DNA from: a virus
Length of the DNA stretch: 23,298 nucleotides
Strand: one strand, 5' to 3'
IMG/VR virus record: IMGVR_UViG_3300028571_000125
Location: 1-23,298 of that record
The translations under genes and the position numbers were made by a program. Shown in pieces: positions 3,566 to 17,642 of this stretch; position 1 is the first letter of the stretch, and every line of letters starts with the position of its first letter. The notes below the pieces were generated by a model, which was given only the letters and a program-made list of their open reading frames with translations, did no database searches and was not told the origin of the DNA.

Positions 3566-3578
3566 TTAAGGTGGCGCA

Positions 3579-4307
3579 ATGTCCAACACAGTCCTCCTAA
3601 AGAAATCAAACACAGCCAATGCAGTCCCTGTACCCGGGGACTTGCAACCTGGTGAGTTGGCCATCAACTACACAGATGGCAATTTGTTTTTTGAGGACAA
3701 TTCGGGCAATGTTCAAATCATTGCCAGCAAAAAATTCATCACTGTTTCAGGCAACGTAACCGGCGGCAATGTAGTCAGTCTGGGCAATATCAGTGCCACA
3801 GGCAACATTGCTGGAAACTATATCTTGGGCAACGGCAGCCAACTCACTGGTTTGCCCCCGGCGTTTGGTTCCATAGCTGTGATTGGTGCCAATACTGTGG
3901 TAGCAAATTCTTCAGGCGCCACAGTGAATTTTGTAGCCGGAACAGGTATCAGCATTACAACCAACTCTGCTACTGATACTATCACATTTGGCGGCGCCAG
4001 TACCATTGTTTGGGAAGTGGGCGGCAGTCTTGGCAGCGTTTGGGACGCACCAGCAACCTATTATGATTTTGGATCAGTTACCGAAGTACCGGCCACTACA
4101 GTTTATGATCTTGGCACAGTTTATGTGAGTGGTGTTTTCTACCCCAACCAATTGGTTCTTCCCTCGTACACTGTGTCTGGTCTTCCCAGTGCAGCCACAG
4201 CGGCTCAGTTTGTGTATGTCACCAATGACGCAGGCGGCCCAGTTCCGGCATTCAGTGACGGAACTAATTGGCGCAGAGTTACAGATCGAGCAATAGTCAG
4301 CACATAA
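3579..4307 (+). CDS. Short tail fibre protein (242 aa)
   Basis: The N-terminus (MSNTVLLKKSNTANAVP...GDLQPGELAINYTDGNLFF) is a clear paralogue of the start of the 925-residue fibre, so both probably attach at the same kind of site. Only one or two GN-TGGN repeats follow (ITVSGNVTGGNVVSLGN). Then come GNGSQLTG, a GTGISIT / DTITFGG block typical of phage fibres, and an unrelated C-terminal ~100 residues (WEVGGSLGSVWDAPATYYDF ... SDGTNWRRVTDRAIVS). Its NDAGGPVPAFSDGTNWRRV segment resembles short fibre-end modules carrying a D-G-T-x-W-R signature. The start at 3579 follows AAGG 5 bases after a good spacing, 13 bases from the previous stop. A NATAAATA late promoter for the next gene overlaps its stop codon. 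Confidence 0.8.
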   Translation: MSNTVLLKKSNTANAVPVPGDLQPGELAINYTDGNLFFEDNSGNVQIIASKKFITVSGNVTGGNVVSLGNISATGNIAGNYILGNGSQLTGLPPAFGSIAVIGANTVVANSSGATVNFVAGTGISITTNSATDTITFGGASTIVWEVGGSLGSVWDAPATYYDFGSVTEVPATTVYDLGTVYVSGVFYPNQLVLPSYTVSGLPSAATAAQFVYVTNDAGGPVPAFSDGTNWRRVTDRAIVST

Positions 4308-4310
4308 ATA
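4303..4310 (+). promoter_or_regulatory. T4-type late promoter CATAAATA
   Basis: CATAAATA fits the NATAAATA late element of T4-like phages and ends 16 bases before the ATG of the giant fibre gene at 4327. It overlaps the TAA of the preceding gene. The same octamer stands before the tail sheath gene and before the homing endonuclease. Confidence 0.7.
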
Positions 4311-4326
4311 TGGTATAGGATAAACC

Positions 4327-7300
4327 ATGGCATCAACACAAGTACAATACCGACGCGGTACCGCATCAGAAAACAACGCTTTCACTGGCGCATTGGCCGA
4401 AATCACGGTTGACACAACCAATAATACCTTGCGGGTGCATGATGGCGCTGTGGCAGGCGGGTTTGCCACAGTGGGGCTCACACAAACTCAAACTCTGAGC
4501 AACAAAACACTAAACGGTGTCACAGTCACAGGCAACATAATTGGTAACCTAGTACCATCGGCCAATATCACTTACAATCTGGGATCAGCCAATCAGGCCT
4601 GGAGCAGTTTGTATGTGGGCGGTAACACTATTTTCTTGGGTGGTTTGCAGCTAAAAGAAATAGCTGGTAACACATTTGCAGTGTACACCAGTGACGGCGT
4701 CACACAGGCCAACATTGATGTGGGCAACATTGACGTAAGTTCAATCACTCAAGGCACCAGCATAATTGGTATTTCAGGTGTCAACGGCAATGCCTACATC
4801 ACTGTAGCCGGAGCCAGCAATGTGCTTGTGGCCACTTCTGCTGGAATCAATGTCACTGGCAATTTGGCAGCTACTGCCAACGTAAATTCAGGTGGCCTAC
4901 TGGTATCAGGAACAGGAACCATTGGTACTTTGGCAGTAACCGGTGACGCCACAGTCAACGGTGATCTTTATGTCAATGGCAATATCAGCTACATCAACGT
5001 TTCTAACCTGGCTGTGGAAGATCCTATTATTAGCCTGGGACGTGGCCCCAATAATACCCCGCTGACTAGTGATGACAACAAAGATCGTGGCACACAGTTA
5101 TGGTATTTTAACACAGCTGGCAACGTAGAAAAAAGTGCGTTTTTTGGTTACGACAACAGTGCTGGCAAAGTGTTTGCTGCCACAGATGTTGTCTATGCCA
5201 ACGAAGTAGTCACAGTCACCAATTTTGGCACCTTTGTTGCTGGCACCGTAGAAGCTGCAACAGCATCACTAACAGGCAATGTCACTGGTGGCAACATCAT
5301 TACTGGCGGCTTGATCACTGCCATTGGCAATGTGTCAGGTGGTAACTTGATCACAGCAGGCCTGGCCACAGTTACTGGTAACATCACTGGTGGTAACATT
5401 GCTACTCCAGGCACTGTGGTTGCCACTGGCAACGTCACTGGTGGCAATATCATCACTGCTGGTGCAGTACAAGCCAGCAGTGTGAGTGCAACCACCACAG
5501 TCAGTGCTACGGGCAACATCACCGGTGGCTCGCTGATCAGCGGCGCTATTGTGTCAGCCATTGGTAACATTACTGGTGGTAACATCTTGACTGCAGGACA
5601 AGCATCTGCTGGCGGTAATATTACTGGTGCTAACTTGCTCACAGCTGGTATTGTGTCAGCTACTGGTAACCTCACTGGTGGTAACATTGACACTGCTGGA
5701 CAAATAAACGCAACTGGAACAATCACTGGTGGTAATTTGGCCACAGCAGGCACAATCAGTACTACTGGTAATATCTCTGGTGGCAATCTTGCAATTGCAG
5801 GCGCTATTGCCACAACTGCCAACATCACTGGTGGTAATATTATCTATGGTTCAGGCGTTGTAAGCGGAACAGGAAACGTATACGCTGCAAACTTTATCGG
5901 TAATGTGATTGGTAACATCACCGGTAATATTGATGCAGCTGGCTCCAACACACAAGTTCAATTCAATGACAATGACGTCATTGCTGGAAGTGTTGGATTT
6001 ACTTTTGACAAAATCAGCAATGCTGTAACTATTTCTGGCAATGTCACTGGTGGCAATGTGCTCACAGGTGGTTTGATCAGTGCCACCGGCAACATCACCG
6101 GTGGAAACTTAATTACATCCGCAACAATCAGCGCAGCATCTATTACTGCATCAGCTAACATCACTGGTGGCAATGTCAGCACTGCTGGTTTGATCAGCGC
6201 TGGTGGTAACGTTACTGGTGGCAATGTCAGCACTGCTGGTTTGATCAGCGCTGGTGGTAACGTTACTGGCGCCAACATTGTTACAGCAGGCACAGTCACT
6301 GCCACAGGAAACATCACTGGTGGCAACGTATCAACTGCATTGTTGTCGGCAACCACAATCAGTGCATCAGGCAACACTACTTCAGGCAACTTGCTCACTG
6401 GTGGCGAGGTTTCAGCTACAGGAAACATTTCTGCTAGCACGTTTATAGGATCAGGTGCTGGACTCTCATCAATCCCAGGTGGCAATGTCACCGGCACAGT
6501 GGCATCAGCTACCACAGCTGGTACGGTTACTACAAACGCACAACCAAATGTTACCTCGGTTGGGGCATTAACATCGCTTTCTGTAACTGGTAACACTACT
6601 TCAGGTAACCTTATTACCGGTGGTCTGATAACAGCCACCGGTAACGTCACTGGTGGCAATGTTAGCACAGGTGGACAAGTATCTGCAACTGGTAACGTCA
6701 CCGGTGGCAATGTGTTCACTGGCGGGCAAGTATCAGCTACCAGTAACATCACTGGCGGCAACTTGATTACCACTGGTGTGGTGATCTCCACAAACACTGT
6801 GAGTGCAGCTGGCAACGTCACAGCCGGTAACGTTACAACAGCTGGTCAAGTGTCGGCCACTGGCAACATTACTGGTGCAGCAATTACTGGTTCAAGTTTG
6901 ACCGTTGGTACTGGCAACATCACAAGTGGTAACTTGTTGTTGAGCGGCGCCATTGTTGACAGTGCTCAATTAGACATACAGACATCTGCGGACAATGCCA
7001 ACATTGTACTCACACCCAATGGCACTGGTAATGTAAACATTGGACGCATGAGTGCATCAGGTAACATCACTGCTGCAACATATCATGGGTCAGCAGCTGG
7101 ACTCTCATCAATTCCGGGTGCTAATGTCACAGGTACTGTTCCAGCAGCCACTGTAGCTGCCACAGTCACAACAGCAGCACAGCCCAATATTACTTCGGTA
7201 GGTACGCTAACTTCTCTAAGTGTGACTGGTAACGTGGTTGGTGGAAATATTTCCACAGCCAACACAGTTGCAGCCAACATACTAACAGTAACGGCTACTG

Positions 7301-9630
7301 CTAGTATCAGCGGCAACCTCAACATGAATAGTCAGAATATCACAAGTGTTGCCAATCCAGTGTTGGCTCAGGATGCTGCCACCAAATCTTATGTAGACAC
7401 CTTGGTTGCAAGTGGTATTCACTTCCATCAGCCTGTTCGGGTTGAGTCTCCAATCAACCTAAACGCCACCTACAACAACGGCACCTCTGGAGTTGGGGCT
7501 ACCCTTACAAACGCAGGCACACAGGTGGCGCTAGTTATTGACGGCGTGACAGTAAGCGTCAACGACCGGGTTTTGGTTTACGAGCAGACCACTCAAACGC
7601 AAAACGGTATCTATGTCGTTACAAGTGTAGGCTCCGGCTCCACAAACTGGATACTGACTCGTTCCAGCGATGCAGACACCTACGTCATCAACAACGCAAA
7701 CGGCTTGAGCGAAGGCTCCACAGTCTTTGTGCAACAAGGTACTACAGGCGCAGGTGAGACCTATACCTGCAACACTTCTGGCGTGATCACATTTGGCACG
7801 ACCAATATCACGTTCGCTCAAGTTTCTTCAGTGCAGGTTTACAGCGCCGGCAATGGTCTGACTCTTTCTGGCACACAGTTCAGCATCACCAACACTGCGG
7901 TATCCTCTGGATCTTATGGCAGTGCTGATCAAGTGGCATCGTTTACTGTTAACTCACAAGGACAAATAACTTCTGCGGCAAACACAGTGATAACAGCCAA
8001 TGCGGCCAATTTGTCAGGCACAACTCTAAATTCAACGGTGGTTAATTCTAGCTTGACCAGTGTTGGAACTCTTGGTAGTCTGGCTGTAACGGGAAATGCC
8101 ACCGCAGGCAACTTTGTGGGCACACTCAATGGTTCAGGTGCAAATGTTACCAATATCAATGCCAGTAACATAAGTTCAGGCACACTGGTCCAAGCCAGAC
8201 TAGCCAACGCCGCAGTGACACTGGGTAGTACAGCGTTAACCTTGGGTGCAACTGTGACCACAGTGGCTGGGCTATCAAGCGTAACATCAACTACATTTGT
8301 GGGGGCATTGACTGGCGCAGCTACCACAGCCGGTACTGTAACCACTAATGCACAGCCCAACATTACAAGTGTTGGTACGCTCGGCAGTCTCACTGTCACA
8401 GCCAACACTACCTCAGGCAACTTGCTCACTGGTGGACTGATTTCAGCTGCCGGACAAGTTACTGGATCACAGTTCAATGGATCAGGTGCTGGCTTGACAT
8501 CAATTCCAGGTGGCAACGTCACTGGCACAGTGGCATCAGCAACATCGGCTACTTCGGCAACCACGGCCGGTACAGTTACAACAGCAGCACAGCCCAATAT
8601 CACATCTGTGGGCACGTTGACTAGCCTGGCAGTGACTGGCAACACCACAAGTGACAACTTTGTGGGCACACTCAATGGTTCGGGTGCAAATGTTACATCA
8701 ATTTCAGCTACCAACATCAGTTCAGGCACATTAGCGCAGGCCCGATTGGCCAACTCCAGCCTCACAGTGAACGGTACTTCAATTGCGCTAGGTGGATCAG
8801 GCACAATTACTGCCACAGCAACCAACGCTCTCACAATTGGCACAGGCCTTGGCGGTAGTAGCTACAACGGCAGCACAGGTGTTACTATCACCAACACAGG
8901 TGTTACCAGCATTGTGGCAGGTACAAACATTGCGGTAAGTGGTGCAACTGGTGCAGTTACAGTAAGTGTGACTGGCACTGTGCCATCAGCCACAACTGCG
9001 GCCACAGTCACAACAGCAGCACAGCCCAATATCACCAGCGTGGGCACACTCAGTAGTTTATCAGTCACAGGCAACGTCACAGCTGGCAATGTGATTACAT
9101 CAGGTTCAGGTGGCAACATAACTGGCGCCAACGTGGTCAGTGCCACCACAATCAGTACCACACAGATTGTAAATTCGGGTAGCAACGGCGTGGGCAACAT
9201 TGGCAGTTCTACCACCTACTTCAACACAGTGTTTGCCAAGGCCACATCAGCACAGTACGCTGACTTGGCTGAAGCCTATGTAGCTGATGCCACATATGAG
9301 TCAGGCACAGTGTTGAGTTTTGGCGGTGCCAACGAAGTCACAAGATCAAACACTCCAGCCGATACCAAGATTGCTGGTGTGGTTTCAACCAATCCAGCCT
9401 ATGTGATGAATGCAGGATTACTGCAACCCTTTGTCACAGTGGTGGCCTTGACTGGTCGTGTGCCAACCAAGGTCACAGGATCTGTACGCAAAGGCGACAT
9501 GATGGTGTCAGACGGCGCTGGCAGAGCACAGGCCTGCGCTACTCCGGCTCTGGGATCAGTGATTGGCAAAGCCTTGCAAGATTTTGACGGTGAATCTGGA
9601 ATCATTGAAGTGGTAGTGGGCAGGCTGTAA
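4327..9630 (+). CDS. Giant tail fibre protein (1767 aa), Mtd-like N-terminus
   Basis: The largest structural gene in the window. Residues 1-52 (VQYRRGTASENNAFTGALAE ... LRVHDG) resemble the N-terminal domain of Mtd-type fibres. About 83-105 is the NLGS..W.SLYVGGNTI.LGG motif, and ~206-262 the NGDLYVNG ... DDNKDRGTQLWYF block of phage fibres. About 315-860 is dominated by 17-residue GN(I/V)TGGN repeats, interrupted by a QVQFNDND...GFTFDK block near 540. QPNITSVGTLTSL-type motifs occur about six times between ~735 and 1580. About 1014-1180 is the QDAATKSYVD module shared with the 925-residue fibre. Residues ~1617-1767 (FNTVFAKATSAQYADLAEAY ... IAGVVSTNPAYVMN ... RVP ... KGDMMVSDG) form the compact C-terminal domain common in marine phage fibres. 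AGGA precedes the ATG. Likely the main long fibre. Confidence 0.85.
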   Translation: MASTQVQYRRGTASENNAFTGALAEITVDTTNNTLRVHDGAVAGGFATVGLTQTQTLSNKTLNGVTVTGNIIGNLVPSANITYNLGSANQAWSSLYVGGNTIFLGGLQLKEIAGNTFAVYTSDGVTQANIDVGNIDVSSITQGTSIIGISGVNGNAYITVAGASNVLVATSAGINVTGNLAATANVNSGGLLVSGTGTIGTLAVTGDATVNGDLYVNGNISYINVSNLAVEDPIISLGRGPNNTPLTSDDNKDRGTQLWYFNTAGNVEKSAFFGYDNSAGKVFAATDVVYANEVVTVTNFGTFVAGTVEAATASLTGNVTGGNIITGGLITAIGNVSGGNLITAGLATVTGNITGGNIATPGTVVATGNVTGGNIITAGAVQASSVSATTTVSATGNITGGSLISGAIVSAIGNITGGNILTAGQASAGGNITGANLLTAGIVSATGNLTGGNIDTAGQINATGTITGGNLATAGTISTTGNISGGNLAIAGAIATTANITGGNIIYGSGVVSGTGNVYAANFIGNVIGNITGNIDAAGSNTQVQFNDNDVIAGSVGFTFDKISNAVTISGNVTGGNVLTGGLISATGNITGGNLITSATISAASITASANITGGNVSTAGLISAGGNVTGGNVSTAGLISAGGNVTGANIVTAGTVTATGNITGGNVSTALLSATTISASGNTTSGNLLTGGEVSATGNISASTFIGSGAGLSSIPGGNVTGTVASATTAGTVTTNAQPNVTSVGALTSLSVTGNTTSGNLITGGLITATGNVTGGNVSTGGQVSATGNVTGGNVFTGGQVSATSNITGGNLITTGVVISTNTVSAAGNVTAGNVTTAGQVSATGNITGAAITGSSLTVGTGNITSGNLLLSGAIVDSAQLDIQTSADNANIVLTPNGTGNVNIGRMSASGNITAATYHGSAAGLSSIPGANVTGTVPAATVAATVTTAAQPNITSVGTLTSLSVTGNVVGGNISTANTVAANILTVTATASISGNLNMNSQNITSVANPVLAQDAATKSYVDTLVASGIHFHQPVRVESPINLNATYNNGTSGVGATLTNAGTQVALVIDGVTVSVNDRVLVYEQTTQTQNGIYVVTSVGSGSTNWILTRSSDADTYVINNANGLSEGSTVFVQQGTTGAGETYTCNTSGVITFGTTNITFAQVSSVQVYSAGNGLTLSGTQFSITNTAVSSGSYGSADQVASFTVNSQGQITSAANTVITANAANLSGTTLNSTVVNSSLTSVGTLGSLAVTGNATAGNFVGTLNGSGANVTNINASNISSGTLVQARLANAAVTLGSTALTLGATVTTVAGLSSVTSTTFVGALTGAATTAGTVTTNAQPNITSVGTLGSLTVTANTTSGNLLTGGLISAAGQVTGSQFNGSGAGLTSIPGGNVTGTVASATSATSATTAGTVTTAAQPNITSVGTLTSLAVTGNTTSDNFVGTLNGSGANVTSISATNISSGTLAQARLANSSLTVNGTSIALGGSGTITATATNALTIGTGLGGSSYNGSTGVTITNTGVTSIVAGTNIAVSGATGAVTVSVTGTVPSATTAATVTTAAQPNITSVGTLSSLSVTGNVTAGNVITSGSGGNITGANVVSATTISTTQIVNSGSNGVGNIGSSTTYFNTVFAKATSAQYADLAEAYVADATYESGTVLSFGGANEVTRSNTPADTKIAGVVSTNPAYVMNAGLLQPFVTVVALTGRVPTKVTGSVRKGDMMVSDGAGRAQACATPALGSVIGKALQDFDGESGIIEVVVGRL
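5270..6900 (+). repeat. Degenerate 51-bp coding repeats of the giant fibre
   Basis: Roughly 25 units of the GN(I/V)TGGN(I/L/V)xTAGxxSAT type in three runs (about 5270-5850, 6030-6450 and 6590-6890), separated by a non-repeat QFN/FTFDK block and a GSGAGLSSIPGGNVTGTV block. Limits are approximate; unit number was counted by eye. Confidence 0.8.
6163..6264 (+). repeat. Perfect 51-bp tandem duplication
   Basis: Bases 6163-6213 and 6214-6264 are identical and encode the same 17 residues twice (TGGNVSTAGLISAGGNV). This gives the exact register of the repeat and shows unit gain is recent here. Confidence 0.9.
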
Positions 9631-9633
9631 ATA
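9626..9633 (+). promoter_or_regulatory. Possible late promoter TGTAAATA
   Basis: Seven of eight bases match TATAAATA. It overlaps the stop of the giant fibre gene, 16 bases before the ATG at 9650, the same geometry as the CATAAATA at 4303. It breaks the NATAAATA pattern at the second base, so this is a weaker call. Confidence 0.35.
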
Positions 9634-9649
9634 GTGTGCAAGGATTGCT

Positions 9650-10372
9650 ATGCCCACACTTAATGGTATTACTTTTGGGTCCGGTATCACAGTAAGCCCA
9701 GGTGTTGTGCAAGACAGCTTGGTCATGGACTTGAACAGCAATGCTGCTTTGAGTTATCCTGGATCGGGTGCGTCGTGGGTTGACACCAGCCGCAGCAAGC
9801 TGGTGATGGCAGGCAACGCCAGCTATATTGCTTCAAACGCAAACGGTGCAGTGTCAGGGGTCGCTTGGAGCACAGCCACCACAGACATACTCAATACTGA
9901 CACGCACTCTATATTTTTTGCAGTGCGTTTCAATTCCAGCGTGTCTTATCCCAGTGGTTACACTGGTAGCTGGGAAAAAATCTTTGCATACAATGCTGGG
10001 GGATCTGATCGTTCACCAGGAATTTGGCGTTATCCCAGTTCACGTTACATACACTGGCGCTACGACCCCAGCAACTCAGGCATTGATTTTGGTCCGCAAG
10101 GACAAAACGGAGTAGAGTTCAATATCAACACCTGGTACTATATTGGGGTCACCAAAAACAACGGCACAGCCACTTGCTATGTCAACGGTACAAACCTTGG
10201 CACAGCCGGAGTAAGCTATCCCAAAACTGCTGGCACATCGCCAGTGTACCTATACGAGTACTACACCAATCCTTTGGCCAACATCAACAACATCTTGGTG
10301 TATAACAAAGTGTTAACTGACGCCGAAGCCAGTCAAAATTTTGCTGCTGTGCGCAGTATCTACGGAATATAA
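9650..10372 (+). CDS. LamG/concanavalin-like lectin-head protein A (240 aa)
   Basis: First of four tandem genes that share a short N-terminal adaptor, here MPTLNGITFGSGITVSPG. The body looks like a LamG/concanavalin A-like jelly roll: opening strand SLVMDLN, then GASWVDTS, a central HSIFFAVRF strand, NTWYYIGVTKNNGTATCYVN (the W-x-x-x-x-V...Y-V-N-G signature of the family), and the closing NILVYNKVLTDAEASQNF. Such domains bind glycans or other surface ligands. No catalytic residues are evident. AAGGA lies 5 bases before the ATG at 9650. The next gene begins one base after its stop. Inferred role: receptor-binding tip attached to a tail fibre or baseplate. Confidence 0.8.
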   Translation: MPTLNGITFGSGITVSPGVVQDSLVMDLNSNAALSYPGSGASWVDTSRSKLVMAGNASYIASNANGAVSGVAWSTATTDILNTDTHSIFFAVRFNSSVSYPSGYTGSWEKIFAYNAGGSDRSPGIWRYPSSRYIHWRYDPSNSGIDFGPQGQNGVEFNINTWYYIGVTKNNGTATCYVNGTNLGTAGVSYPKTAGTSPVYLYEYYTNPLANINNILVYNKVLTDAEASQNFAAVRSIYGI

Positions 10373-10373
10373 C

Positions 10374-11735
10374 ATGCCCACAATTGGACCAGGAATCTCA
10401 ATAGGCCCCGTGGCCATGAACTATGGCATGTCACAAGACAGCCTGGTGCTGGATCTTGATGCCACCAATGCTACCAGCACTCGAGGACAGCGCAGTCTCA
10501 TCAACTACACCACTTGGGCCACAGGATCAGGCGGAACCGCAGGGTTCAATCAAAACGGTCAAACTGCCGAAAACGAACGAGTGGCCAGTGGCTGTCCTTT
10601 TGGCTACAATGACGTGGTATGGGAAGCTAGGCCCCTGGCACAGACCAACGACGACGGCGGCTGGAACACTGACTGGTTCAATATTGACAACACCAAACTG
10701 TATCGTTTCAGTGTGTGGGTGCGTAGAACCAGCGCCACAGCAGGTGGTACTTTTTACTTTGGTATGTATGCCAACGGTGACGGTTCACGACGTACTGACA
10801 ACAGCGCAGTGGAAAGCAATGCCTACTGGGAATGTTCAGGTACTGGTTTGTTGTCGCAGAATCAGTGGTATCTGTGGGTGGGTTTTGTGTATCCGTGGAA
10901 CACAGCGTACACTGGCCGCAATGCCGAAACTGGTTATTACACTGTGAGTGGCGGTAGAGTGGGCAACATCAATGGTTGTAACATTGGCTCAGGCGATCTC
11001 AAGTGGAGTTCAAACTCCACTCAAGGCATTCATAGAACCTACTTGTACTATTGCAGTGACAACACCACACGCCTGCAGTTTTGGCAGCCCAGGGTGGACG
11101 TAATTGACGGAACTCAGCCCAGTATACAAGACCTGCTGGCCAATGCTGGCTCCACATGGTTTGACGTCAGTGGACGAGTCAACAACGCCACCATGTACAG
11201 TCAGCCCACGTTCAGCACCAGCACTGGATACTTTGCCTTTAACGGCACAGCCAACTACGGCACTGTGATCAACAATGCCAGTTTGAACTTTGCTTCGGCA
11301 CAGACTCTGCAGATTGTGATGCGACACAGCTACACTTCAGAACGTAGAAATCCCTGGAACCAGGCCTATGCGGGGTGGGGCACTTGGACTCATGAACAAG
11401 GCGAAAATATCAGTCAATACTTTGGTAACGGTGGTGGCGATAATTCGCCTTATGTGGGCATTGGCAGTGCAGCCACACCCAGGAATGTGTGGAATGTGAT
11501 GTGTGCAGTACGCAGTACCACGGAATTCAAGTGGTATATCAATGGTGCGCTGTCGTCGACCAGTTCCAATCCCTATGGCGTGCTAGCCACCACAGCTGCC
11601 AATACTACCATTGGCAATGGCTACGCAGGTTATTGGCAAGGTGACATGAGTAGAGTTACTGCATACACTCGAGCACTGTCAGACGCCGAAGTCAGTCAAA
11701 ATTTCCAGGCCATAAGAGCCACTTACGGATTGTAA
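10374..11735 (+). CDS. Lectin-head protein B: LamG with inserted jelly-roll-like module (453 aa)
   Basis: The start is ATG 10374 (MPTIGPGISIGPVAMNYG), one base after the previous stop; an upstream TTG in frame would overlap the previous gene and lacks the adaptor. Residues 1-20 match the adaptor of its neighbours. The LamG opening strand (SLVLDLDATN, ~23-32) is followed by about 225 extra residues (NYTTWATGSGG ... YRFSVWVRRTS ... TFYFGMY ... RLQFWQPRVDV) that look like a CBM4/9-type beta-sandwich. LamG then resumes with GSTWFDVSGRVNNATMY and closes with VTAYTRALSDAEVSQNF. Proteins A and C lack this insertion, so a whole module appears nested inside the lectin fold. Likely a receptor-binding protein with two ligand-binding faces. 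LamG is confident; the identity of the inserted module is moderate. Confidence 0.78.
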   Translation: MPTIGPGISIGPVAMNYGMSQDSLVLDLDATNATSTRGQRSLINYTTWATGSGGTAGFNQNGQTAENERVASGCPFGYNDVVWEARPLAQTNDDGGWNTDWFNIDNTKLYRFSVWVRRTSATAGGTFYFGMYANGDGSRRTDNSAVESNAYWECSGTGLLSQNQWYLWVGFVYPWNTAYTGRNAETGYYTVSGGRVGNINGCNIGSGDLKWSSNSTQGIHRTYLYYCSDNTTRLQFWQPRVDVIDGTQPSIQDLLANAGSTWFDVSGRVNNATMYSQPTFSTSTGYFAFNGTANYGTVINNASLNFASAQTLQIVMRHSYTSERRNPWNQAYAGWGTWTHEQGENISQYFGNGGGDNSPYVGIGSAATPRNVWNVMCAVRSTTEFKWYINGALSSTSSNPYGVLATTAANTTIGNGYAGYWQGDMSRVTAYTRALSDAEVSQNFQAIRATYGL

Positions 11736-11736
11736 T

Positions 11737-12465
11737 ATGTCAACTATAGGATCAGGAATCACTATTGGCTCAGGCGTCACTGTACAACAAGGCGTACTCA
11801 GCAACGGACTGCAACTGTATCTCAATGCTGGAACTTATGCTGGGTCTGGCACAGCCTGGCAAGATCTCAGTGGCAATAGCAGAACATTTACCTGGGCCAG
11901 CACTCCCACATGGACCAATGCTGGACCAGCATCTTATTTTTCAACCCTGGGTAATCTTGCAGTGGGCCCAGCATCCAACAGTTTTGGTATCAACAATACA
12001 TCAGGTTATACAATCTTTTTGGTTATGATGCAAAATGCATTGGTTAGCACAGCAGCCTTCAAATTTTACGGAGACGTGCTCTACAGTCGAGGAATTTTTT
12101 CACATTGTACTTGGAGTGACGATGTTGTTTATTTTGACCAAGGCGGCTGTTGTGCATCAGACACTAGAACTTCCGTGGGCAGTGGCGGATCGCAAACTTG
12201 GAATGTGTGGACTTTTAGAAGAAATACCAACAGCAGTAGCAGGTACATTATGAAAAATGGGTCAACTCTAGCAACCAATACAGCAGCAGCAGCTAATATT
12301 GATCTTAACTCTACAGCAGCTAATCTTGGAGGGTCTGATGAATATGGTGGCAATAGTTCAACATGGAACGCCCGATTAGGTGCTTTTATTGTGTACAATC
12401 GTGGGCTGAGTGACACTGAAGTGTCTCAAGTGTACAATACTATACGAGGTGGATGGAGCATCTAA
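11737..12465 (+). CDS. LamG-like lectin-head protein C (242 aa)
   Basis: ATG 11737 sits one base after the previous TAA. The adaptor is MSTIGSGITIGSGVTVQQG. The LamG body opens with GLQLYLNAGTY and GTAWQDLSGN, has a central TIFLVMM strand, TWNVWTFRRN...RYIMKNGSTL, and closes with FIVYNRGLSDTEVSQVYN. A CC pair (GGCCASD) and a single C nearby (SHCTW) could form surface disulphides or a metal site; this is a guess. Closest in architecture to protein A. Role inferred as an alternative or co-assembled receptor-binding head. Confidence 0.78.
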   Translation: MSTIGSGITIGSGVTVQQGVLSNGLQLYLNAGTYAGSGTAWQDLSGNSRTFTWASTPTWTNAGPASYFSTLGNLAVGPASNSFGINNTSGYTIFLVMMQNALVSTAAFKFYGDVLYSRGIFSHCTWSDDVVYFDQGGCCASDTRTSVGSGGSQTWNVWTFRRNTNSSSRYIMKNGSTLATNTAAAANIDLNSTAANLGGSDEYGGNSSTWNARLGAFIVYNRGLSDTEVSQVYNTIRGGWSI

Positions 12466-12466
12466 C

Positions 12467-13264
12467 ATGCCAGTATCTTTAGGTCCAGGAATCACAATAG
12501 GTGCAGGCATAGGGGTCAACACAGCATTTGGACCTTATGCTGCTTATCGAACTGCATCCGAACTGTTAACTGCCAAGCCTGAGCTAGCTGGGCAGGACAA
12601 TTATTACTTGTTGTATCCTGGAGGTACTGGTGCAGCACCACAGTGGGTATGGTGCGACATGACCACCAACGGTGGTGGATACATGCTGGTAGCTAGAAGT
12701 CATCCCTCTGTGGTGAATTACAATGGTCAAAACTGGGGTTGGCAAGGCGGCAAAATTGGAGATGTTCGTTGGTTTGATCAAGCCTATCAGGCCGGCTGGT
12801 GGAGTTTTTGGCACAACAATGCCACGTTCACTGAATACATATTTGGCAACAGAGCCAACATCAACAACAATGCCTGGGGACCTTTTATCTACAGAGTCAG
12901 CAGTATCAGTTACACTACATTTTTGACATCTGACACTCAACAAAGCTACAGCTATTCCACACTCAAAAGCAATACTGGCGTGTATGGCTCAGTTGATTAT
13001 CCAGGTATGCAAGGCGCTATTGGATTTCCGGTAACTGGAACAGCCAATAACTTTTATTACATGAGAGACTGCTGTGGATTTGCTGGCTACGGTGGTGTAC
13101 CAACTTCAATGGTAACGACCTATTGCGGGGCTAACTTTTACTATGCTGGCCCATGGTGCGGCGGCTCAACCACTGACGGCAGTGGGAATTTCCAAAACGG
13201 CACCTTTGTCAGCAATGGGCTAACATTTGGTGGAACCAACCAGTACATGATCATGGTGCGATGA
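12467..13264 (+). CDS. Fibrinogen-like-domain lectin-head protein D (265 aa)
   Basis: ATG 12467 lies one base after the previous stop; the longer in-frame opening at 12410 lies inside the previous gene and is rejected. The adaptor (MPVSLGPGITIGAGIGV) links it to proteins A-C, but the head differs. Residues ~30-77 (SAxELL..KPEL...YYLLYPGG ... WVWCDMTTNGGGYMLVAR) match the start of fibrinogen-related domains (G-x-Y-x-I-x-P ... V-x-C-D-M-x-T-x-G-G-G-W), with Cys63 in the CDM motif. The C-terminal part has a CC pair (~202), YCGANFYYAGPWCGG (~218-233), reminiscent of the family's C...GWWY..C motif, and ends GTNQYMIMVR, like the family's closing strand. Fibrinogen-like domains often bind N-acetylated sugars. 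Its stop overlaps the next start (ATGATG). Function inferred: receptor-binding tip. Confidence 0.7.
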   Translation: MPVSLGPGITIGAGIGVNTAFGPYAAYRTASELLTAKPELAGQDNYYLLYPGGTGAAPQWVWCDMTTNGGGYMLVARSHPSVVNYNGQNWGWQGGKIGDVRWFDQAYQAGWWSFWHNNATFTEYIFGNRANINNNAWGPFIYRVSSISYTTFLTSDTQQSYSYSTLKSNTGVYGSVDYPGMQGAIGFPVTGTANNFYYMRDCCGFAGYGGVPTSMVTTYCGANFYYAGPWCGGSTTDGSGNFQNGTFVSNGLTFGGTNQYMIMVR

Positions 13265-13533
13265 TGCAATACAATTTTTATGTTCTTACAAATCAAGGTT
13301 TGAAAAACACCACAGTACAATCGCAGAGTGATTTTGCATGCGCACCTTTTGGGTTTGTGCCTTACCGAATGACATCAACTTGTGAATGCGAGCCACAAAT
13401 TATTGCAGATTTTTGGTATTGCGTGGATCTTGTGCTGAATGCGCACGGACTCACTGCTGAAAATTATGTGCGTGCTGTGCGTGCTTACAAAGCAGATGGC
13501 GTCTTGTGCGGCGAGTTTGATTCTGGCAGTTAA
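13261..13533 (+). CDS. Small unknown protein coupled to fibrinogen-like gene (90 aa)
   Basis: I do not recognise this protein. It starts at ATG 13261 (or the adjacent ATG 13264), overlapping the TGA of the fibrinogen-like gene, which points to coupled translation. The sequence has five cysteines (FACAPF, TCECEP, WYCVD, LCGEF) and a predicted helix near EPQIIADFWYCVDLVLNAHG. There is no signal peptide or membrane segment. Position after the receptor-binding genes is where T4-like phages often keep fibre-assembly factors, so a chaperone or accessory role is possible but not shown. Its stop overlaps that of the convergent Nudix gene by four bases. Confidence 0.65.
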   Translation: MMQYNFYVLTNQGLKNTTVQSQSDFACAPFGFVPYRMTSTCECEPQIIADFWYCVDLVLNAHGLTAENYVRAVRAYKADGVLCGEFDSGS

Positions 13534-13937
13534 TTTTGTTGTTCAACCAAAGCCAGCTTGACTTTTACAGCGTCAAGATTCACAGTTGACCACAATCCAG
13601 GATGCATGGGTTTTGGAAAAACTCCCGAATCAATCCAGGCATAGCCAAGATGCTCATGATTGAGCACCGGCACAAACTCCTGAGCTATAACACACACCCA
13701 GGTATGGTATTCAAAATCACCTGCGGTGAATTTTTCCACAGGGATCAGCCGCTGATACACTGGAAAGCTGCCTAGCTCTTCGGTACACTCGCGCTCCATG
13801 CCACCCAGCAAGGTTTCGCCAGATTCAAGTTTGCCACCAGGCAGCCCCCATGCTCCAGGATGTTTGTGATCATTGCGCAACAGGTACAGATATCGACCAG
13901 TGCTGGCTGCATAAAACCAAACACCAACTGCTTTCAC
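13530..13937 (-). CDS. Nudix hydrolase (135 aa)
   Basis: Hydrolyses nucleoside diphosphates linked to another moiety; the exact substrate cannot be told. The Nudix box is complete from residue 35 to 57 (GKLESGE, x7, REC-TEE-LGS): the metal-binding glutamates E50, E53 and E54 are present, though the last position is Ser instead of an aliphatic residue. The preceding WGLPGG is typical. I chose the GTG at 13937, giving KAVGVWFYAAS as the first strand; it overlaps the TGA of the gp15-like gene in the arrangement GTGA. Longer openings up to 14006 would run 73 bases into gp15 and add no family-like residues. It is the last gene of the minus-strand neck unit and converges on the 90-residue gene with a 4-base stop overlap. 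Confidence 0.88.
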   Translation of the reverse strand: MKAVGVWFYAASTGRYLYLLRNDHKHPGAWGLPGGKLESGETLLGGMERECTEELGSFPVYQRLIPVEKFTAGDFEYHTWVCVIAQEFVPVLNHEHLGYAWIDSGVFPKPMHPGLWSTVNLDAVKVKLALVEQQN

Positions 13938-15346
13938 AGCACTATGCTCCAGGTACCAGCGGGATACACACCTTGATATGATTTGATCCAAGCATCTCCA
14001 GTCCACTCATACTGTGTGCCTGTGGTGATGTTGGTGACAAATTGTCCAGCCGGCTGATTGCTGCTGTCAAACAACACACGCCAGTAACCCCACTGGTACA
14101 CAATGATGTCATTGGCTTGAGCCACCAAGGGCCGGTTACCTTGCCCCAACCATGCCACAGCTGGAAATTCATTGTCAGCACTGCCAGTTCCATCGACCAG
14201 CAGGTATTGTTGACCATCTGCGGCCACTGGTAATCCAGTGCCCGGACCACTCAGTAGTGGATTGATAATGGCATCAATGGGTGGCAAAGTATTTTGCGGA
14301 GCAGTATCAGGATCTGGATTGAAAATCACCAGTCGATCATCATTGGGATCCACCACAAATGTGCCCACAATGGCGTATTCGGTGGTGTTGGAGTCTGGCG
14401 GACGATTCAATCGAATTTGACTGATACCCGGACGATACACGCCGTACGCACCCAACACAGCTGGCCACAACAAGGGAGAATCAGCCACAATTGCAGTGGG
14501 GCTGAGATTTACATAGCTGCCATCAGGCACCACTGTGGCATCATACAGCACTTGAATTTTGTTGTCAATCACAACCAATTTGTAATTCCATGGTGTGAAC
14601 ATTTGGCGTGTGCCCAACAACAAGTCATTATTGGTGATGGAATCAACCATGTCACCTTGGCCATCAAAAATTCCAGCGACCACTCGTTCTACCACACCCA
14701 GTTTCTTGACCATGGCCGGAGAACTGATCCAAATTGGAATGCCAAATGTTATGGTCATGATGTCAATGGGATTGTCAGTGCCCATGGGAATGGTGCGACT
14801 GGTCCAGTTCACTCGTTCTAGATCCACCACGGTCAAGCTGGTCCAGTCAATATAGTTGTCAGTGGCCTGTATCTCCAAGGACGGATTAAACAGTGTGGCA
14901 ATTTGTTCAAATATCTGTAACTTTTGATTGGTGTTGCTGGTCCACACATCTAGGTTAATGGTCATGCGATAGGGCACCGGCATGAGTCGTTCAATACTGA
15001 ATGCGTTGCCCTGTGTGGTTTCGTAGGTTTGACTGAAAGAATCATATGTGCGCTGGCGCACAGCAGTCTTGCTCACAAAGTAAGGTTCCTGCATTCGTGG
15101 ACGATCATATTCCATGCCAGTGATGTAGAATGACATCATGGGCGAAGAAGGCATGGAGTTGGCTGAATTTTCTTGAATAATGGTTTGAGCATTGCGACTG
15201 GCGTCACCATACCGCACAGGAACTCTCAAATAGGCTGCATTTTCACTGTTGGCCTCACGGCCGTATTCTACTTGAAATCCCGTGAAGATTCTAGTGAATT
15301 GCAGCAGGAACCTGCGTATCTGTTCGTCGTAAAAGAATTCTTGCAT
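13934..15346 (-). CDS. Tail sheath stabiliser/completion protein, T4 gp15-like (470 aa)
   Basis: T4 gp15 caps the top of the tail sheath and joins it to the head. The N-terminus (MQEFFYDEQIRRFLLQFTRI ... LRVPVRYGD) follows the gp15 pattern F-x-Y-F...R-R-Y...L-F-x-x-I-x-V...I-R-V-P-I-x-Y. The central region has PVPYRMTINLDVWTSNTNQK, LFNPSLEIQ, VDLERVNWTSRTIPMGTDN, TFGIPIWISSPA, all characteristic of environmental gp15 proteins. The family core ends near residue 245. The remaining ~225 residues (from LLLGTRQMFTPWNYKLVVID) are an extension absent from T4 gp15 (272 aa). It ends with YEWTGDAWIKSYQGVYPAG, similar to knob-like W-rich ends. The ATG lies two bases after the gp14-like stop; the 3' end overlaps the Nudix start. 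Confidence 0.82.
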   Translation of the reverse strand: MQEFFYDEQIRRFLLQFTRIFTGFQVEYGREANSENAAYLRVPVRYGDASRNAQTIIQENSANSMPSSPMMSFYITGMEYDRPRMQEPYFVSKTAVRQRTYDSFSQTYETTQGNAFSIERLMPVPYRMTINLDVWTSNTNQKLQIFEQIATLFNPSLEIQATDNYIDWTSLTVVDLERVNWTSRTIPMGTDNPIDIMTITFGIPIWISSPAMVKKLGVVERVVAGIFDGQGDMVDSITNNDLLLGTRQMFTPWNYKLVVIDNKIQVLYDATVVPDGSYVNLSPTAIVADSPLLWPAVLGAYGVYRPGISQIRLNRPPDSNTTEYAIVGTFVVDPNDDRLVIFNPDPDTAPQNTLPPIDAIINPLLSGPGTGLPVAADGQQYLLVDGTGSADNEFPAVAWLGQGNRPLVAQANDIIVYQWGYWRVLFDSSNQPAGQFVTNITTGTQYEWTGDAWIKSYQGVYPAGTWSIVL

Positions 15347-15348
15347 GT

Positions 15349-16710
15349 TTAGTAGTTAAATGTTGTGGGTGGTGGATTTGGGGGCTTGTTGCCTCCTTGA
15401 TCACCGTTGTCGGCCCTGGGCCGTAGAATTTCACTGAGACTCTGACGACTTGGTATATTGCCCATGTCCGTGGTGGGCACAGTGTAGGGATTGTTGACAA
15501 AGCCGCTGCGCAGGGTCTTGTTGTTGAATCCGTTGTTGAGATCATTGCGAACCTTGCTCTCAATCTTGATCCACATTTTACCATTGAAACGGAACAAGCG
15601 ATTGGGAAAGTAGTCCAATCTCAAGAAGAAGTCGCCGGCCAAGGGCGCGGGCGGGAAACTAACACCAGCGCCTGTGGGCAATCCATTGGGTGGAATGCCG
15701 TCACCGGTCAAGTAACCCACAGTGTAACCATCGGCCTTGGGAGTCACACTCATGCCGCCTTGTGTGCCATCCACGGTGTCGCCACTTTCGGATGTGAGTG
15801 AATCAGGATTGGCTGGTTGTCCGTCGATTGTGGTGGGCAACACATAGAAGTTTTGCACATCAAACCCACTGAGTGGTACTTCAATATTGGCTTGAGTAAC
15901 AATGGCGTCGTTGATTTCTTGATCCTTGGTGCGAGTGGTAAACACGTCACTCTGTGTGGGTGGTGTGTATTCCATCCAGTAAGTGGTATTGGTGATGTCT
16001 GTGCCTGCTGGAACATTGATCTTGGCCACATAGTACACATCACCTGCATTGACCACACTGCCCGCAGGGTAGAAATTGTCATTGTCCCAAATTTGTTCGC
16101 TTACCACTGGTTTCTTGAGTATGTCTTTGAATTCTTGTGCGTTGGTCAGCGGTGTGGCTTTTACACGCCACAGGTGTGGCAACCAAGTTTGACTGAAACC
16201 TTCGGATGCAAATGCCGCGTCCTGTATCACATAGTACTTGGGAAATGGTTGTGGTATGGCAGCATTGAGTGGATTGTAGTCTCTGAGATTGGGCACTTCC
16301 AGCACATCACCGTTCATGAGCTTGCGTTGAAACGTGTCAATCATGTCATTGTAGTGAAATGTGATAAACAGGGTGTCGTTGTTCAAGAACAGTCCAAATT
16401 GACTCAAGTCAAAGTCCACGTCCTGGGTGTTGTACACGCCGCGCATGACGTAGATGTCAGGATCGTACACACGATCACGGTTTTCCAACAACAGCAAGTC
16501 TTGTATGTGCAAGGGGCTCTGAGTGTCATATGTGGGCTGGGTTGCATCAGCATTGCCCGAAAACGCCGAATCCTCCCCGCCAGTTTGTGGGCCCAGATAT
16601 TTGTGGATGAAAATGTCGAGGCCACCTACCGTGTACATCTCACTAATAGTGCGATCCAAAAATTGATAATCTTTGGTTCTGTTAGGTCTGTAAAGTGACA
16701 ATCTTGGCAT
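15349..16710 (-). CDS. Neck protein, T4 gp14-like (453 aa)
   Basis: Part of the head-tail connector with gp13. The sequence MPRLSLYRPN ... ISEMYTVGGLDIFIHKYLG, IQDLLLLENRDRVYDPDIY, FDLSQFGLFLNNDTLF, LMNGDVLEVPNLRDYN and SEGFSQTWLPHLWRVKATPL is the pattern I know for gp14 of T4-like environmental phages. A C-terminal section (FFLRLDYFPNRLFRFNGKMW ... GNKPPNPPPTTFNY) ends in a Pro/Gly-rich tail. ATG 16710 is chosen because family members start M-P-R-L-S-L-Y; the TTG at 16716 adds only two residues and overlaps the endonuclease stop. No strong ribosome site is visible. It lies two bases after the homing endonuclease stop and two before gp15, so the genes are one transcription unit. Confidence 0.82.
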   Translation of the reverse strand: MPRLSLYRPNRTKDYQFLDRTISEMYTVGGLDIFIHKYLGPQTGGEDSAFSGNADATQPTYDTQSPLHIQDLLLLENRDRVYDPDIYVMRGVYNTQDVDFDLSQFGLFLNNDTLFITFHYNDMIDTFQRKLMNGDVLEVPNLRDYNPLNAAIPQPFPKYYVIQDAAFASEGFSQTWLPHLWRVKATPLTNAQEFKDILKKPVVSEQIWDNDNFYPAGSVVNAGDVYYVAKINVPAGTDITNTTYWMEYTPPTQSDVFTTRTKDQEINDAIVTQANIEVPLSGFDVQNFYVLPTTIDGQPANPDSLTSESGDTVDGTQGGMSVTPKADGYTVGYLTGDGIPPNGLPTGAGVSFPPAPLAGDFFLRLDYFPNRLFRFNGKMWIKIESKVRNDLNNGFNNKTLRSGFVNNPYTVPTTDMGNIPSRQSLSEILRPRADNGDQGGNKPPNPPPTTFNY

Positions 16711-16712
16711 AA

Positions 16713-17282
16713 TCAATTATTTAGTTGTTTTTTTAATGCCCAAGTGCGGCGACAAGATTCTGCCCTTTTTGCTACAGATTCGGGATTTTGTTTCTTACCT
16801 TTTAATGCATTTGCAATTTTATCCGACCATAATATCTCTCTACCGGCTAAAGATTCTGAACGTTTTTTCTTAGACTCGTCGCTGTGCTTTCTTCCAGAAT
16901 GTATTTTACTTGCTATTTCTTTTTGTTTTTCTGATGATGGTTTGCCAAAAGAAGGATTCCCGCGACCACTACGATTAGCCTTTGCCTCTTCTGACCATTT
17001 CCATCCCCCAATCTTATGCCCAGACGATCCATCACCGCCTTCGGTTCTATTATACAAAATTCCAGTGCCCAAGTCTTTGCGACCATACTCAGCAATTAGT
17101 TTTTTCTCTAAGTTGAATGCTTGTTCTTCGGTTAGGTTGTTTTCAACAATGATGATTTGTTCGGCACCCTCGGGTGGCTTTATGTCCTTTTTGCCCCATT
17201 TTTTGTAAGCACGTTCACCGCTGCCTTTTCCAATATAATATGGAGTTCCGTCTTCCCTAAGATATTTGTAAACATAAAACAT
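16713..17282 (-). CDS. Free-standing GIY-YIG homing endonuclease with NUMOD3 repeats (189 aa)
   Basis: A DNA endonuclease that spreads its own gene. The GIY-YIG domain opens at once: [20 protein letters not shown] supplies the two conserved tyrosine motifs, followed by [21 protein letters not shown] and [15 protein letters not shown]. Residues ~112-170 hold NUMOD3-type DNA-binding repeats ([50 protein letters not shown]). The ATG at 17282 is preferred: the longer start at 17303 would place the CATAAATA promoter inside the coding region, and related enzymes begin M-F-Y-V-Y-K. The gene is visibly more AT-rich than its neighbours, as expected for an invader. It sits directly upstream of the gp14-like gene. 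Confidence 0.9.
16718..16725 (-). promoter_or_regulatory. Possible degenerate late promoter ACTAAATA before gp14
   Basis: On the minus strand ACTAAATA ends 7 bases before the gp14 ATG, the same distance as the better elements nearby. It lies inside the 3' end of the endonuclease gene. Only the TAAATA part matches, so confidence is low. Confidence 0.3.
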
Positions 17283-17290
17283 AGTGTGAG

Positions 17291-17298
17291 TATTTATG
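17291..17298 (-). promoter_or_regulatory. T4-type late promoter CATAAATA (minus strand)
   Basis: An exact CATAAATA reading toward the homing endonuclease, 8 bases before ATG 17282. With the downstream genes nearly abutting, it probably drives endonuclease, gp14, gp15 and Nudix together late in infection. Confidence 0.65.
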
Positions 17299-17320
17299 TT
17301 CATACTACAAAAACTGCAGG

Positions 17321-17349
17321 TTGACCAATAAATCTCAAAGTGCTATAAT
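17321..17349 (+). promoter_or_regulatory. Sigma70-type promoter P1 (TTGACC-17-TATAAT, extended -10)
   Basis: TTGACC at 17321-17326 and TATAAT at 17344-17349 are 17 bases apart, with TGC directly before the -10 box. The start codon at 17356 is only 7 bases past the -10 box, so the message would be nearly leaderless. Divergent from the late promoter at 17291-17298. Confidence 0.85.
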
Positions 17350-17355
17350 TTGGTT

Positions 17356-17631
17356 ATGAAAGTAGTTAAACTGGACCGTAGATTCCGCCAATACAAACAG
17401 CACGGACATGTGATTGCTGTGCGATGTGATTCATGGCCAGGGGAAGGCATATCTTTTGAACAAATATGCAAGGCCAAATTGGGGAACCAAGGTTACATGC
17501 CCACCAACGATTGGCATGCCTACTTTGGCAAAAACAACGGCCGCGCCAACCGTCCATACTGGATCTCATTTCGCAACGAAGCAGACTTGACCATGGTACT
17601 ACTTTCTGCTGACTTGACTAAAATTGATTGA
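17356..17631 (+). CDS. Small unknown early protein (91 aa)
   Basis: I do not recognise it. ATG 17356 (MKVVKLDRRFRQYKQHGH) lies 7 bases downstream of a strong sigma70-type -10 box, and no Shine-Dalgarno sequence is present; the TTG at 17350 abuts the -10 box and is unlikely. The protein is basic and Trp-containing (CDSWPGEGISFEQICKAKLG, NDWHAYFGKNNGRANRPYWI) and reads as a small compact fold with no membrane segment. The promoter of the next gene lies inside its last ~20 bases. Its promoter type suggests expression early by host RNA polymerase. Confidence 0.75.
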   Translation: MKVVKLDRRFRQYKQHGHVIAVRCDSWPGEGISFEQICKAKLGNQGYMPTNDWHAYFGKNNGRANRPYWISFRNEADLTMVLLSADLTKID

Positions 17632-17642
17632 TCTGCTATAAT
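17614..17642 (+). promoter_or_regulatory. Sigma70-type promoter P2 (TTGACT-17-TATAAT, extended -10)
   Basis: TTGACT at 17614-17619 and TATAAT at 17637-17642, spacer 17, TGC before the -10 box. It overlaps the end of the 91-residue gene. It shares GATCTGCTA(T/C)AAT with P3. Confidence 0.85.

Follow-up and report, generated by a model that had tools for sequence, protein, structure and literature searches.

Lectin-like heads behind a common leader peptide: a putative accessory host-adhesion cassette of an uncultured large phage

Why should neighbouring phage genes that encode different heads begin with the same short peptide? The question is raised by a 23.3 kb (23,298 nt) fragment of an uncultured large phage from IMG/VR (record IMGVR_UViG_3300028571_000125), the whole of which is hereafter called the window; coordinates are positions in the window unless a contig is named, and L-numbers (L007, L025, L047 etc.) are the labels of the contigs compared with it. 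Five genes, A to E, lie between the end of a fibre gene (9630) and a convergent NUDIX-type gene (13530-14006). An earlier note, made from the sequence alone, had described the first four as consecutive genes with a shared start and had proposed that they form a plug-in receptor-binding cassette. All four open reading frames were recovered as described, and each of the A-D junctions has a 1-base gap between stop and start; a fifth gene, E, which overlaps the end of D by 4 nt and is part of the same unit, had been missed. Our analysis suggests that the unit is probably an accessory cassette for host adhesion, carried by a large phage of T4-like (jumbo) type, in which the heads would stand behind a common docking peptide.

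A common leader on different heads

Genes A to D, all on the plus strand, are each predicted to make one small lectin-like head behind a common short Gly/Ile/Thr peptide, the leader. Gene A (9650-10372), which starts 20 nt past the fibre stop codon, combines the leader MPTLNGITFGSGITVSPG, with an extra NGITF ahead of the leader motif, with a LamG head (Pfam Laminin_G_3, 2.4e-8), and gene B (10374-11735) has the leader MPTIGPGISIGPV and an insertion of ~220 residues ahead of its LamG domain (Laminin_G_3, 1.1e-12). Both pass the curated cut-off of Laminin_G_3 (PF13385; 27.6 bits), A with 34.7 and B with 48.8 bits. Gene C (11737-12465; leader MSTIGSGITIGSGVTV), which has an 89% homologue in L025, gave no Laminin_G_3 match in the Pfam search and has only PHROG matches in common with A and B, so we term its head LamG-like only. 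Gene D (12467-13264; leader MPVSLGPGITIGAGIGV) has no Pfam match itself; Fibrinogen_C (PF00147) is matched by 15 of the 16 aligned members of its family (best 3e-9), and the profile of the family, built from 16 relatives, matched tenascin (1.6e-7) as well as structures of FIBCD1 and intelectin over residues ~45-95. The head types named in the earlier note are borne out by Pfam for A and B, through PHROG alone for C, and for D they are suggested by its relatives. Searches of the proteins of named phages with C and D returned no matches. The structural model of B (pLDDT 58.4) matched ConA-like jelly rolls, including sialidase lectin domains and the tailspike of cyanophage Pan3; its resemblance to the receptor-binding domains of clostridial neurotoxins is a general similarity of fold, and no toxin kinship is claimed. 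The AlphaFold2 model of D (pLDDT 43.6) was too poor for fold comparison. LamG-type and fibrinogen-C folds bind glycans and proteins, and the heads of this array may bind surface glycans.

Among the 46,592 codons in the six frames of the window, the motif G[SPA]G[IV][TS][IV][GS] is present exactly four times, in each case at the start of one of the genes A to D. The common part is about 12-16 residues long, somewhat shorter than the ~18 residues of the earlier note, and the repeated GxGIT pattern is still present at residues 10-16. In pairs of A to D the leaders are 44-62% identical and the heads 22-32%, and in the arrays of L025 and L026 the values are 50-72% and 28-33%, respectively. When 12 LamG-type proteins of eight contigs are compared, mean identity is 74% in the first 16 columns and 34% in the head, the leader average being biased upward because some of these contigs were found by the leader itself (L025 and L026 were retrieved via B and C heads). 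Across 16 leaders, the first, second and third codon positions have identities of 0.74, 0.91 and 0.49, so the leader peptide is the conserved entity and is under selection.

The DNA that encodes the leader is also repeated. In all three arrays with the GITIG leader (those of the window, L025 and L026), an unsupervised repeat search placed it among the top direct repeats. The copies in the window (repeat family D1, plus strand) lie at 9672-9703 in A (66% to the reference), 10381-10412 in B (69%), 11744-11775 in C (the reference) and 12477-12508 in D (78%). The DNA identity of the leaders in the window is 0.70 versus 0.60 expected from the peptide, a modest excess (p about 0.002). In L025, genes A and B agree at all of their first 27 nt, where synonymous shuffling predicts 21.1 (p = 5e-5). 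This pattern would fit local duplication or conversion of the leader. A second repeat family in the window, D2, consists of the 3' ends of A (10319-10341, plus strand, coding for DAEASQNF) and B (11682-11704, plus strand), which share 22 of 23 nt. The leader DNA had been proposed as a recombination point for swapping heads; since it is the main repeat of each array, short-homology exchange there is plausible, although no exchange breakpoint was mapped within the leader and the 3' ends of A and B offer a further repeat. Repeated leader DNA and repeated 3' ends together could supply the short homologies for head exchange.

Gene E (13261-13533, plus strand; 90 aa) has no Pfam or PHROG match. A tblastn search over the compared loci found it directly behind D in about 12 other contigs; it was not found behind D in L014, L015, L018/L022 or L020, and was never seen without D among these loci. 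The simplest guess is that this companion of D is a D-specific partner or assembly factor.

Gain, loss and re-assortment of heads among relatives

The array occupies a variable slot (9631-13529) with conserved borders. On one side is the tail-fibre gene (4327-9630, plus strand; 1767 aa), which has an N-terminal Mtd_N domain (Pfam, E 3.5e-10), long repeats and a conserved C-terminal domain of ~130 residues (9241-9630) that borders the slot; on the other is the NUDIX-type gene (minus strand), whose translation contains a GxxxxxExxxxxxREUxEE-type motif. In this window, which is a fragment, Mtd_N is the one element seen that recalls a target of a Mtd-type diversity-generating retroelement, a system with a template/variable repeat pair and a reverse transcriptase. 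Relatives were collected by anchoring on a structural gene (15349-16716), to which the contigs of earlier loci were added; the nearest named phages for this gene are the jumbo phages PA5oct, Atu_ph07 and Phosso, and its remoter kin are a group including CBB and Munch. Both borders are seen in 38 contigs, a few of them near-duplicates. The fibre C-terminal domain is conserved in all 38 and also in PA5oct, Phosso, Atu_ph07 and Campylobacter phages, and the NUDIX-type gene is 65-91% conserved in the slot contigs.

The slot is empty in 27 of the 38 contigs, with 7-92 bp between the fibre and NUDIX matches, and filled in the other 11. Three filled slots have close neighbours with an empty one and flanks that are ~89% identical: the window versus L047 (89.0% over 3.1 kb), L057 versus L056 (88.7%) and L090 versus L067 (89.6%). 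L047, of 342,865 bp, is the nearest contig with different slot content, and no LamG-head profile match was found anywhere in its 343 kb; L046, on the other hand, is nearly identical to the window (99.9% over 17 kb). The slot of L025 contains homologues of A-B-C without D-E, and that of L026 an extra LamG-like gene, X, followed by A-B without C-D-E. The slots of L057 and L069 contain LamG and Gly_rich_2 heads with the leader-like starts MPITFTPGLTMTPGFTV, MGITFSPGLTMTPGLTL, MSITMTTGLTIGNGVSI and MTITITGGMTFGAMTL, plus a small gene; those of L051, L073, L121, L123 and L124 contain unrelated proteins of 1230-1321 residues, and that of L090 two long genes that look enzymatic in translation. With the slot empty or otherwise filled in relatives, and L047 without a LamG-head match, the lectin-head cassette is, as judged from these comparisons, accessory and dispensable. 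Relatives do not always carry the same four genes as a fixed set: heads are gained, lost and exchanged, in line with the modularity that the earlier note had proposed, and the changes appear to take place at gene junctions.

Behind the fibre of PA5oct, which has the same C-terminal domain, there is an unrelated protein, and no head array was found behind the fibres of Phosso and Atu_ph07. A 116-127 aa gene (MSHFAQLDxNNTV... or MSHYARIENGV...) recurs between tagged heads in L057, L069, L170 and L221, and matches phrog_7759 in L170. The long proteins of L051, L073, L121, L123 and L124 are accompanied in the slot by a 133-aa gene, an arrangement conserved across these contigs.

The same heads are also found behind other leaders. 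D heads 62-76% identical to that of the window have, in other phages, a different and shorter leader of the type M-S/A-x-x-x-G/S/N-P, while homologues of B are 82-85% identical where the leader class is the same (L025, L026) and 72-76% where it is another (L016, L028, L029). The arrays with other leaders reach about 11 head genes (L007, L010); with about 11 consecutive lectin-head genes at L007:1142-10729 and L010:4-10235, they are far longer than that of the window. A leader matrix built from the LamG genes of the other-class arrays recognised 11 of 12 D leaders there (p <= 0.005), the exception being L013, so the leader follows the array and not the head. The D leader of the window scored poorly in this test because of a one-residue offset, and the motif count was used for it instead. 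L011 has a GITV-type leader. Yet another start, of a third kind, is seen in L014 and L018, where it precedes a LamG domain to which the D head is fused on the far side. From the same heads with different leaders, the leader/head boundary could be placed at residue ~20-28. Furthermore, L030 (10297-11682) encodes a chimeric head in which a B-type insertion is joined to an A-type LamG, and therefore domains also shuffle inside heads. On this sequence evidence leader and head re-assort between phages, and the heads would be re-joined to whichever leader the recipient phage uses. Such mixing and matching suggests, without proving it, that the heads are interchangeable host-adhesion tips.

The leader is not confined to these arrays. 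Searching IMG/VR with a DNA pattern for GIT[IV]G[PSA]G[IV]T yielded about two dozen additional genes in which the motif lies no more than 10 residues from the start, and whose products carry LamG domains, Gly_rich_2 domains (L170, L198, L221) or heads of no known family (L183, L218). The leader also begins proteins of 45-50 aa with a short acidic TQD/TED-type tail, in L171 (3081-3233), L172 (4330-4476), L206 (6143-6295), L223 (minus strand) and L224 (4476-4613); those of L172, L223 and L224 lie directly upstream of fibre-like genes. Many of the leader genes are in tail or late regions, beside fibre-like genes in L033, L036, L043 and L172 in L218, as a tandem pair behind a tail sheath stabiliser gene, and in L032, L035 and L154, beside lysis-like genes. 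The MPTLGGGITLGLG proteins of L040-L042 match the pattern exactly and are unrelated, and the 37 remaining matches, being internal or without a nearby start, were treated as chance. A scan of genomes from 84,980 bacterial and archaeal species revealed no relative.

Possible roles of the leader

The leader peptide would most likely act as a docking tag that places any head at the same site of the virion, where the heads may compete or be displayed together, as the earlier note had proposed. The dock is probably the terminus of the fibre whose gene lies immediately upstream: not only in the window but also in L025, L026, L043, L057 and L069, an array lies directly behind the fibre C-terminus, and segments of PHROGs annotated as virion structural protein or baseplate wedge are matched by the heads. 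Several points weigh against this reading. The placement of the heads on the virion is something that we infer. Most relatives with the same fibre C-terminal domain have no array, so this domain alone cannot require it. Leader genes also occur at a distance from fibre genes, adjoining lysis or replication genes. Finally, the leader is unstructured (pLDDT <50) in a mediocre AlphaFold2 monomer model (mean pLDDT 58); disorder in a monomer would fit a peptide that becomes ordered only on a partner, but at that model quality the evidence is weak.

The spread of the leader over several late-gene contexts, and the tandem pair behind the tail sheath stabiliser gene of L218, could also mean that the tagged heads decorate another site of the virion, such as capsid or tail sheath whiskers, and confer general stickiness instead of forming specific receptor-binding tips. 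Hair-like fibres on head and tail sheath are reported for the related Atu_ph07 (PMC7824862). Against the recurrent position of the arrays behind the fibre C-terminus, we regard this alternative as rather unlikely, though it is the strongest of those considered. It is improbable that the leader is no more than the first strand of an ancient LamG family expanded by tandem duplication, in which case it would reflect common descent and have no docking function. Three of the four heads are of LamG type and could be old duplicates, and the leader DNA is a little more similar than the peptide requires; but the same leader is found on heads of other folds, fibrinogen-C and glycine-rich, and on headless proteins of 45-50 aa, LamG heads with other leaders are common, and leaders are 44-72% identical where heads are 22-33%.

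Alternatively, the head proteins might not be parts of the virion at all: they could stay inside the infected cell or be released from it, for instance to mask receptors and so prevent superinfection, which would agree with a dispensable cassette. We consider this very unlikely in view of the late structural neighbourhood, the matches to virion-structural and baseplate PHROGs, and the LamG domain in which a protein of cyanophage S-PM2, annotated as virion structural, ends. Hardly credible is a translation signal, in which the start-region DNA would aid initiation where the genes of an operon are tightly coupled, with the peptide as a by-product: the leader does sit at the start codons of genes one base apart, and its DNA identity exceeds the synonymous expectation, yet conservation over the 16 leaders is lowest at third codon positions (0.49) and highest at second ones (0.91), and the GxGIT pattern is still kept at residues 10-16. 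Docking of heads by a common peptide remains our preferred reading. A broader version, which we put forward only tentatively, is that the GxGITIGxGITI leader is a phage-wide display tag of 12-16 residues. Any protein that bears it would be recruited to a single common type of site on the virion, and phages would thereby assemble their adhesins, as interchangeable or mixed sets, from a pool that they share; the phage would determine the leader, and the prey the head.

Known systems and implications

Phages with lectin heads near their fibres are known, and so are variable slots for host recognition. According to PMC7824862, LamG3 domains are associated with tail fibres of jumbo phages and a role in adhesion has been proposed for them. 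These Laminin G3/ConA-fold domains are of the same type as the heads of the window, but they are described as domains in virion proteins, and the accessible part of that source does not describe tandem stand-alone heads with a shared N-terminal peptide. Similarly, the metaviromic host-recognition islands of marine phages contain variable tail fibre, lectin-like, carbohydrate-binding and fibrinogen-like genes (PMC3909814). They resemble the window in being variable regions with adhesion genes and are defined by read recruitment, and a common leader on different heads is not described for them in the accessible part of that source. The slot of the window can be counted among variable host-recognition modules, with its adhesion genes and its filled and empty neighbours with 89% identical flanks.

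The T-even gp38-type adhesin is a separate small protein that is encoded beside the fibre, caps its tip and sets the host range. Like gp38, the head genes of the window lie directly behind the distal fibre gene; unlike gp38, they encode several heads of different folds in tandem, and no gp38-like Pfam or PHROG match was found in A to E. In a cultured phage, Flavobacterium phage immuto (NC_055915), a fibre-like gene is likewise followed by three tandem LamG-type genes (gp51-gp50-gp49) with 1-base or overlapping junctions, but these have another leader class (MAEIHGPKV, MPTAGGPNT), no GITIG motif and no fibrinogen head. The source of a 'structural protein' label in immuto was not traceable, as the Baltic Flavobacterium paper makes no mention of this phage. 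In cyanophage S-PM2, p176, an annotated virion structural protein, ends in a LamG of the same family (32.6% identity), which is fused to the long virion protein and has no separate leader. No description of tandem LamG arrays was found in the searchable literature, which excludes most subscription journals; with the same scope, a leader common to unrelated heads across phages appears to be undescribed and is the new part.

Two further observations concern the neighbourhood of the array. The three fibre genes at 788-9630 (plus strand) contain long repeats of the TGNVTGGNxxTGGLISATGNITGGN type, which align to one another and to other contigs out of register and may themselves recombine. Between two structural genes, at 16713-17303 (minus strand), lies a GIY-YIG homing endonuclease look-alike; L047, the 89% identical relative, lacks most of this stretch, with an alignment gap at 16692-17634.

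Should the leader prove to be a docking tag, a single short peptide would mark host-adhesion proteins across many uncultured phages, and the tag alone would suffice to find heads of different folds. The gain and loss of tagged genes might then serve as a record of host-range evolution, the dock might be found as the virion protein that co-occurs with each leader class, and the simultaneous display of several adhesins by one phage would become testable.

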